Positions 11,281 to 12,646 of a stretch of 48,428 nucleotides of DNA are shown here, piece by piece. The notes under the pieces were generated by a model. That model saw only the letters and a list, made by a program, of their open reading frames with translations. It was not told the DNA's origin and made no database searches. This DNA is from Chloroflexota bacterium (GTDB lineage: Bacteria > Chloroflexota > Dehalococcoidia > SM23-28-2 > RBG-16-64-32), in contig VBEJ01000039.1 of NCBI GenBank assembly GCA_005882985.1, forward strand, positions 1 through 48,428, read 5' to 3'. The first letter of the stretch is position 1, and each line of letters opens with the position of its first letter. The translations under genes and the position numbers were made by a program.

Positions 11281-11288
11281 GCACTGGT
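11281..11288 (-). repeat. Copy of the 8-bp motif (ACCAGTGC on minus strand) just upstream of parA
   Basis: GCACTGGT at 11281-11288 is the exact reverse complement of unit ACCAGTGC at 12597-12604. Confidence 0.5.
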
Positions 11289-11310
11289 GTGCTGCCATGA
11301 TGCTGCTGTT

Positions 11311-12117
11311 ATGGCCCGGGTGATTGCAATCGCAAACCAGAAGGGCGGAGTCGGTAAGACGACGACGACGATCAATATCGGAATCGGACTATCCGAGCGC
11401 GGCAGAAGCGTTATTCTGATCGACTTCGATCCCCAGGGCAGCTTGACGCAGGGTCTTGGCGTCGACCCGGACTCCCTGTCGGCCACTACCTACGATGCCC
11501 TGATCGATGACGAGACGCCGCTGGACTGGGTCTTCCTTCGGGTCCGGAGCAAAGTTGTGCTGGCCCCGGCCGGCATCGACCTGGCGGGCGCGGAGTTCGA
11601 GCTAGCGGCGACAGCGGACTGGCAACAGACGCTGCGCCGCAGGCTCGTAACACTCAAGACGGAGGCCGACTTCATCCTGATAGATTGTCCGACCTCTTTG
11701 GGTGTTCTGACGGTGAACGCGCTTGTTGCCGCGAACGAGGTAGTGGTGCCTGCTGAATGCAGTTTCCTTGCGTTTCGGGGGCTCAGCGGTCTTCTTGCCA
11801 CCATCAAGGGAGTCCAGGCACGATTCAATCCCAGGCTTAAGATCACCACGATATTGCCTGTAAAGGTACCGCGAACGGTTCATGCACGAGAGGCGCTCGA
11901 GGAGCTCCGGCGTATATGCGGCCCGCTGGTCAGCGACATTATCGTTCCTCAGCGCGTGAAGGTAGCTGACGCCCTCATCAGCGGGAAATCCATTCTGGAA
12001 TTCGATCCGAGGAGCGACGCTGCGGAGGCGTTCCGCCGGATAACGGAGGTGATTGATCATGGCGAAAAGGGTATCTATGAAGGGGCGCGGCTTAGAGGCC
12101 GTTTACGGAGACTATAG
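11311..12117 (+). CDS. ParA family ATPase
   Basis: MARVIAIANQKGGVGKTTTTINIGIGLSERGRSVILIDFDPQGSLTQGLG (deviant Walker A KGGVGKTT), DFILIDCPTSLGVLTVNAL; ATG 11311 chosen over 11224. Confidence 0.92.
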   Translation: MARVIAIANQKGGVGKTTTTINIGIGLSERGRSVILIDFDPQGSLTQGLGVDPDSLSATTYDALIDDETPLDWVFLRVRSKVVLAPAGIDLAGAEFELAATADWQQTLRRRLVTLKTEADFILIDCPTSLGVLTVNALVAANEVVVPAECSFLAFRGLSGLLATIKGVQARFNPRLKITTILPVKVPRTVHAREALEELRRICGPLVSDIIVPQRVKVADALISGKSILEFDPRSDAAEAFRRITEVIDHGEKGIYEGARLRGRLRRL

Positions 12118-12343
12118 GGCCGCACCAGTACGCCGGACCACTGGTGTAGACGTATACGGGCAGAGTGGTGCACCAGCCAAGCAGACGGATCAGTCGCTGC
12201 TGAAAGCAACATTCTACCTTGATCGCGAGACGATCGACCTGTTGGAGCGGTTGTGGCTCGATCAACGCAGAAGGGGGCGCAGGGGTTCGAGCAAGAGCGC
12301 GTTGGTCCGCATGGCTATTCGGCTGTTGGCCGAGCAGAACTGA
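12059..12343 (+). CDS. Small ribbon-helix-helix-like DNA-binding protein, candidate ParA partner
   Basis: C-terminal LLKATFYLDRETIDLLERLWLDQRRRGRRGSSKSALVRMAIRLLAEQN fits an RHH fold; basic flexible N-terminus; overlaps the parA 3' end in another frame (12059-12117). Confidence 0.7.
   Translation: MAKRVSMKGRGLEAVYGDYRAAPVRRTTGVDVYGQSGAPAKQTDQSLLKATFYLDRETIDLLERLWLDQRRRGRRGSSKSALVRMAIRLLAEQN
12124..12175. repeat. Copies of the 8-bp motif and related palindromes inside the 5' part of the RHH gene
   Basis: ACCAGTAC 12124-12131; ACCACTGGT palindrome 12137-12145; TGGTGCACCA palindrome 12166-12175. Confidence 0.45.
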
Positions 12344-12398
12344 TGGTTAAACCAAGGCGTCTGTGATTATACAGGAGGCTGGGAGGCTTCTAGACTTG

Positions 12399-12441
12399 CA
12401 GACCTGTAAGCCCGTATATCAGTTGGCCAGTAGACCAGTAC
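12399..12441 (+). repeat. Iteron array 1: CAGACCTG + 11 nt + three 8-bp units
   Basis: CAGACCTG 12399-12406; units ATCAGTTG (12418), GCCAGTAG (12426), ACCAGTAC (12434) directly abutting. Confidence 0.65.
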
Positions 12442-12561
12442 GCATCCGAAACCGTTCCCCGGAGGGGGGATTAGCCGCAACTCTAATTGCCCGGATGAAC
12501 CGCACCTCTGGTTTGTCCTCGGCGCCAAAAAAATAACCCCCCCCCCGTCCCTTTTGCAATC

Positions 12562-12604
12562 CAGACCTGCCGAACGGTACGTCAGTACACCAGTACACCA
12601 GTGC
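12562..12604 (+). repeat. Iteron array 2: CAGACCTG + 11 nt + three 8-bp units
   Basis: CAGACCTG 12562-12569; units GTCAGTAC (12581), ACCAGTAC (12589), ACCAGTGC (12597) directly abutting; same layout as array 1. Confidence 0.7.
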
Positions 12605-12646
12605 ACTGTTACATCCGCCGGGACGACTGCAGAAGCCGGGCAAAAA

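Follow-up and report, generated by a model that had tools for sequence, protein, structure and literature searches.

A candidate ParA–ribbon-helix-helix partition cassette with 8-bp iterons on the chromosome of a soil Chloroflexota bacterium

The parA-RHH locus and its iterons

The window, the whole stretch of 48,428 nucleotides analysed here, comes from a soil-dwelling member of the phylum Chloroflexota whose assembly comprises 2.62 Mb and is 83% complete. Within a housekeeping chromosomal region of this window, parA is followed by a small gene for a ribbon-helix-helix (RHH) protein, and short 8-bp iterons lie before, within and behind the pair (Table 1). The initial annotation was correct on recheck as to the coordinates and sequence of parA, the two downstream arrays of three abutting units, which are exact, the inverted unit before parA and the recurrence of ACCAGTAC at 12124-12131; for the RHH gene the coordinates stood, and the product of 95 residues that it had given proved to be 94 residues plus the stop codon. 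The same-genus relative L009 served as the reference for conservation of the locus and for dN/dS. No match to an RNA family was obtained in the locus.

Table 1. Features of the parA-RHH locus in the window, with identities to the same-genus relative L009 where given
Feature	Position	Strand	Remarks
Inverted single unit ACCAGTGC	11281-11288	-	22 nt 5' of the parA ATG; candidate operator
parA	11311-12117	+	268 aa; Soj-type Walker ATPase, KGGVGKTT P-loop
RHH gene	12059-12343	+	94 aa; start overlaps the end of parA by 59 nt
Intragenic iteron cluster, RHH linker	12124-12147	+	ACCAGTAC-GCCGGACC-ACTGGTGT, third slot inverted
Conserved intergenic block with array 1	12399-12450	+	45/52 identical to L009
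Degenerate in-phase unit GCCCGTAT	12410-12417		Fourth unit of array 1
Array 1	12418-12441	+	ATCAGTTG-GCCAGTAG-ACCAGTAC
Conserved intergenic block with array 2	12562-12620	+	52/59 identical to L009
Degenerate in-phase unit AACGGTAC	12573-12580		Array 2 extension
Array 2	12581-12604	+	GTCAGTAC-ACCAGTAC-ACCAGTGC
Degenerate in-phase unit ACTGTTAC	12605-12612		Array 2 extension

The parA product carries the KGGVGKT P-loop of a Walker ATPase and matches Pfam AAA_31 (E 3.7e-51). Its best solved relatives are bacterial Soj/ParA proteins (4pfs, E 1.4e-54), and the archaeal-type Soj entry 7dut, which we take to be SegA, matches far more weakly (1.7e-13) than either 4pfs or Soj; alignment with ParF extends over approximately the first 45 residues only. 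This is the sole Soj-like ParA found in the assembly, and ParB_N has no match anywhere in that assembly, at its 83% completeness.

The partner protein is laid out as an N-terminal KGRGLEAV motif, a disordered linker and a C-terminal ribbon-helix-helix. Its assignment as a small RHH-domain protein adjoining ParA draws on a match to RHH_1 (PF01402, E 0.0017) slightly below the Pfam cut-off, on homologs that also stand beside ParA and on an AF2 model of low confidence, with a strand at 48-52, helices at 56-71 and 79-93 and a disordered N-terminus. RHH profile scores are weak, a profile search of the PDB with the family gave spurious matches only and Foldseek with the low-confidence model gave no informative match. 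The N-terminus reads KGRGLEAV in the window and KRGLDALF in the family f52, and its RGLDALF resembles the N-termini of ParB proteins of the same class (GRGLDALFP, GRGLSALIP). In ParB proteins the equivalent stretch contacts and stimulates ParA. The RHH protein seems to combine a ParA-contact motif of the ParB type with an unrelated DNA-binding fold, and if so the motif would be portable. At L032:4008-5269 and L012:5001-7167 the protein encoded after ParA is longer and its N-terminal motif is similar (RVSIKGKGEDIFFG; RRASLRGRGWEILRG); one of these proteins has an RHH-like C-terminus.

Counting the degenerate units, each downstream array amounts to four to five 8-bp steps, and both arrays fall within a duplicated 41-nt block (12399-12439 and 12562-12602, 71% identical). 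Only two copies of the pattern YCAGTN3YCAGTN3YCAGT lie in the window, and 100 shuffles gave none. Comparable triplets might have been common by chance, a doubt raised by the initial annotation, and the whole 2.62-Mb assembly holds only these two, with no occurrence of the reversed pattern. In L009, NYCAGTNN is retained in all three units of array 1 despite a changed Y in two of them, two of the three units of array 2 are degenerate (GTCGGTAC-ACCAGGAC-ACCAGTGC) and the inverted unit before parA is not kept. The 111-nt spacer between the conserved blocks keeps 26 positions against L009, with 71 gapped. Within that spacer, homopolymers of A7 and C10 (window:12527-12546) are absent in L009 and mark a possible assembly or slippage spot. 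Against the same relative, dN/dS is approximately 0.14 for parA and 0.16 for the RHH gene, and the pair is therefore being maintained.

Gene pairing, iteron conservation and constraint on the DNA among relatives

The comparative sample comprised 344 genomes of the same class, in which incomplete assemblies limit the weight of any absence of a gene or site. A profile built from six RHH relatives matched 20 of the 344 genomes, and ParA lies directly upstream of every match except L112 and L113. The ParA-RHH operons found in this way extend to other families of the class, and members include G049, G058, G065 and six f52 genomes, with RHH proteins approximately 30-40% identical to that of the window. 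An independent scan of the same genomes for three RYCAGTRY units with at most two mismatches fell on the ParA-RHH operons of eight of them (G000, G002, G049, G085, G100, G114, G189 and G228), and a reversed-motif control gave stray single matches in a few genomes. Matches lie inside the RHH gene in G049, G085, G189, G114 and G228 and upstream of parA in G100, G189 and G114; motif matches in other families with no ParA nearby were set aside as unrelated. The repeats are thus kept in the ParA-RHH operons of relatives, and the consensus of thirty phased units is A-C-CAGT-A-C with minor variants.

These loci share a common plan, in which iterons stand behind an extended -10 before parA and again in the linker codons of the RHH gene. 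In f52 and G058 the sites begin a few bases past the extended -10, TGNTATAAT; ACCAGTAC units occupy the same position of the RHH gene in G049, G085, G259, G189 and G114, and the palindrome ACCAGTGTACTGGT stands behind the RHH gene at several loci. The sites of the window occupy the same three zones, with their weight shifted downstream, and the single inverted unit before parA lies in the zone of the promoter-proximal arrays of the f52 loci and G058. At L037 and L094-L097 a conserved TTGACA-N7-TATAAT lies 5' of parA, and its -35-like box is only half as far from the extended -10 as is normal.

Counts of ACCAGT/ACTGGT over twelve loci were taken in the 100 nt upstream, the RHH gene, the 320 nt downstream and parA. 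The first three zones hold 11, 16 and 14 occurrences against shuffle means of 0.7, 1.3 and 1.7 (maxima 4, 6 and 6), and parA, with one against a mean of 2.9, shows no enrichment; given that the window had helped to define the motif, the counts without it are 10, 14 and 11. When the RHH genes were recoded synonymously, the mean was 2.0 against the 16 observed, and none of 5000 recodings reached 16, hence the RHH linker is under constraint at the DNA level. Phased short repeats are therefore conserved near the operon among homologs, and it is because such sites are found again with equivalent gene pairs in distant relatives that the cassette is taken to be real; the combined evidence supports the initial annotation in its proposal of a ParA-RHH cassette with iterons in a housekeeping region of the chromosome.

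The pair keeps one chromosomal position throughout its f52 occurrences, in the order YjbQ-like, nitroreductase-like, tsaD-like, parA-RHH, a 450-aa gene and dprA-like, the neighbours being named by sequence resemblance, with no family search. A second ParA-RHH pair, from a different subfamily, is present in five f52 genomes (L104, L106, L107, L108 and L110). Its RHH protein begins MDSKERTLG and has the strand KATFYL; the pair stands directly 5' of an argJ-like gene in L107, L108 and L110, and no ACCAGT arrays were seen at these second pairs. In G003 and G009 of the window's family (L033:354-2383 and L034:4295-6324) a ParA approximately 35% identical is followed by a 420-aa repetitive protein, which stands where ParB or RHH would and may be a further type of ParA partner.

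Further sites away from the operon were found in a few relatives. In f52, a cluster lies past the stop codon of a FabK/nitronate-monooxygenase-like gene in G085, G100, G114 and G259, all of which have the RHH gene; it is missing behind the same ortholog in G128 and G199, which lack the RHH gene, and also in G228 although the RHH gene is present there. A single intergenic palindrome lies past a purM-like gene in G058, and the window's own genome has no convincing distal site. Distal palindromes (ACCAGTACACTGGT) in G000:C61, G189 (leuS-like) and G114:C12 were rejected as coding sequence whose codons are dictated by conserved peptides, QYTG among them, and iteron pairs in the rluD-like genes of f52 were rejected as sites on the same grounds. 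The peptides QYTGTLV and DQYTGG yield ACCAGT pairs or palindromes in L174, L204-L207 (rluD-like) and L177 (leuS-like), which are probably coincidence. Archaeal SegB sites are mostly intragenic, a point that bears on these coding-DNA pairs. Sampling of GC skew in G189 for an origin was noisy, with 200-600 N per sampled 20 kb, and the order of the sequence there may be unreliable.

A putative partition function and its alternatives

Taken together, the locus is probably an active, chromosomally encoded ParA-RHH partition cassette that uses 8-bp ACCAGTAC-type iterons. In the proposed mechanism, RHH dimers would bind the iterons in arrays, a step that is considered very likely. Sites at the start of parA would act as the operator, with the RHH-iteron complex repressing its own operon, and such autoregulation is likely. 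The sites in the RHH linker and downstream, together with the rarer distal clusters of relatives, would form a centromere-like site. The disordered N-terminus of the RHH protein, with its ParB-like [K/R]RGL[D/E]AL[F] motif, may contact and trigger a nucleoid-bound Soj-type ParA, by which ParA would be activated, and the iteron-marked DNA would then be moved or anchored through a ParA diffusion-ratchet. That the cassette partitions the chromosome, or at least its own locus, is given an even chance. The initial annotation had named a plasmid-derived remnant, chromosome segregation and cargo positioning as options, and of the three the segregation of the chromosome or of the locus is favoured.

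The distribution of ParB bears on how far this can be taken. With a strong ParB_N match defined as E below 1e-20, approximately 125 of the 344 genomes have one (168 matches in all, less 43 weak ones tallied by hand). Approximately two thirds of the sampled class genomes are without a strong match, and their partition proteins are not obvious. All 20 genomes that matched the RHH family lack a strong ParB_N match, three having weak matches only, an exclusion with P 9e-5 when phylogeny is ignored. Neither RHH-family nor strong ParB was found in approximately 200 genomes, among them three of f52 that are 94-100% complete; given these three, the cassette is no universal substitute for ParB, and given the whole set, replacement of ParB by the cassette is not established. 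It is suggested, tentatively and at something short of an even chance, that in ParB-less Chloroflexota lineages a Soj-type ParA, the RHH protein and ACCAGTAC iterons lying partly inside the RHH gene and partly elsewhere constitute a chromosome-segregation system, a bacterial counterpart of SegAB. Chromosome segregation is only plausible, because the distribution is patchy and many ParB-less relatives are without the cassette. Counted against the partition reading are this patchiness, the f52 genomes with neither protein, the degraded sites of L009, the state of the locus in G005, the want of a convincing distal site in the window's genome, the weak RHH scores and the uninformative fold search. 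G005 keeps the RHH gene (75%; L039:486-815) beside a ParA without its N-terminal half, and no arrays were found at this RHH locus. A small HTH excisionase-like ORF lies upstream of the broken ParA in G005, which may reflect decay or an assembly break.

Given that many plasmid ParAs are 39-43% identical to that of the window, it is possible that the pair is a domesticated or travelling module of a plasmid or integrative element, whose role in the window's family is, or was, to stabilise inserted DNA and not the chromosome. The cassette is patchy there, with the RHH gene in 3 of 15 family genomes, and the interval between guaB and a radical-SAM gene that holds it is variable: G009 and G013 have other genes in it, and in G001, of the same genus, the adjacent radical-SAM gene is present with no parA-RHH beside it. 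This variability of the interval, whose radical-SAM gene is SPL-like, is seen at window:8874-12646, L144:2174-2363, L145 and L146. In G001 a 45-nt 3' end of guaB adjoins the radical-SAM gene, with unrelated DNA alongside, a junction of the kind expected of an integration hotspot. However, such an origin is considered unlikely, as no relative of the RHH protein occurs among 72,556 plasmid records, no integrase, replication or transfer gene was recognised beside the pair in the ORF list of the window, both genes are under purifying selection and the locus is fixed in f52. The dN/dS values and the fixed place in f52 likewise disfavour a dead plasmid remnant.

Somewhat less probable still is that ParA positions a cargo other than DNA or has another job, the RHH protein being mainly an autorepressor with a small regulon and the iterons operators only. 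Iterons behind the extended -10 in f52 and G058 would suit this, and the distal f52 cluster, with a metabolic gene on either side, is placed where a regulatory site could be; nevertheless, the RHH-linker and post-operon sites, under constraint at the DNA level, are hard to explain as operators of this operon, and the ParB-like N-terminal motif implies contact with ParA. A chance origin of the repeats, or their being low-complexity sequence next to an ordinary ParA gene, is very improbable: the units are short and degenerate, but the triplets are unique in the genome and conserved across families, and their counts far exceed those of shuffles and of synonymous recoding.

Comparison with known partition systems

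The ParF-ParG system of plasmid TP228 (type Ib) has a small RHH protein with a disordered N-terminus behind ParA. The partition cassette proposed here shares that arrangement; however, its ParA is Soj-like and its RHH protein was not found in the 72,556 plasmid records. With ParABS (Soj/Spo0J) it shares the Soj-type ParA and a GRGLxAL-type N-terminal motif in the partner, but that partner is an RHH protein with no ParB_N or helix-turn-helix, and no ParB adjoins the window's parA. According to a 2016 review, all bacterial chromosomal centromere-binding proteins are of the helix-turn-helix type (PMC5002424). Among the titles and abstracts screened, which cover few subscription journals, none was recognised as describing ParA-RHH partition on a bacterial chromosome. 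A chromosomal ParA-RHH pair with a conserved iteron is a testable candidate for segregation in the ParB-less genomes of the class and, if true, would be an exception to the helix-turn-helix rule. In that case the division of centromere-binding proteins into two known classes would not coincide, in bacteria, with the division between chromosomes and plasmids, and chromosomal RHH partition would be common to bacteria and archaea.

In the delta-omega system of plasmid pSM19035, an RHH protein binds contiguous non-palindromic repeats over promoters, autoregulates and contacts ParA through its N-terminus; the repeats are 7-bp WATCACW in runs of 7-10, and full activation of ParA requires four or more heptads in a row (PMC9499535). 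The window likewise has an RHH protein with short contiguous repeats, for which autoregulation and an N-terminal ParA contact are proposed. The units differ, being 8-bp RYCAGTRY rather than WATCACW heptads, in runs of approximately 2-5 with degenerate outer units, and they lie on a chromosome. SegAB of the Sulfolobales is also a chromosomal ParA-like ATPase beside an RHH DNA-binding protein. SegB has been characterised as an archaeal protein with no sequence relatives in bacteria. Its site, the 13-bp palindrome TCTAGA-S-TCTAGA, is found just upstream of the operon and scattered elsewhere, a distribution counted as a further similarity, 83.7% of sites being intragenic in S. solfataricus (PMC12284271, PMC9178275). 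The window has 8-bp RYCAGTRY direct iterons in place of that palindrome, and its ParA scores far higher with bacterial ParA/Soj than with SegA. In summary, the cassette belongs to a type familiar chiefly from plasmids and archaea and would work like the plasmid ParA-RHH systems and archaeal SegAB, yet it is neither delta-omega nor SegAB, given that site, ParA subtype and host all differ.
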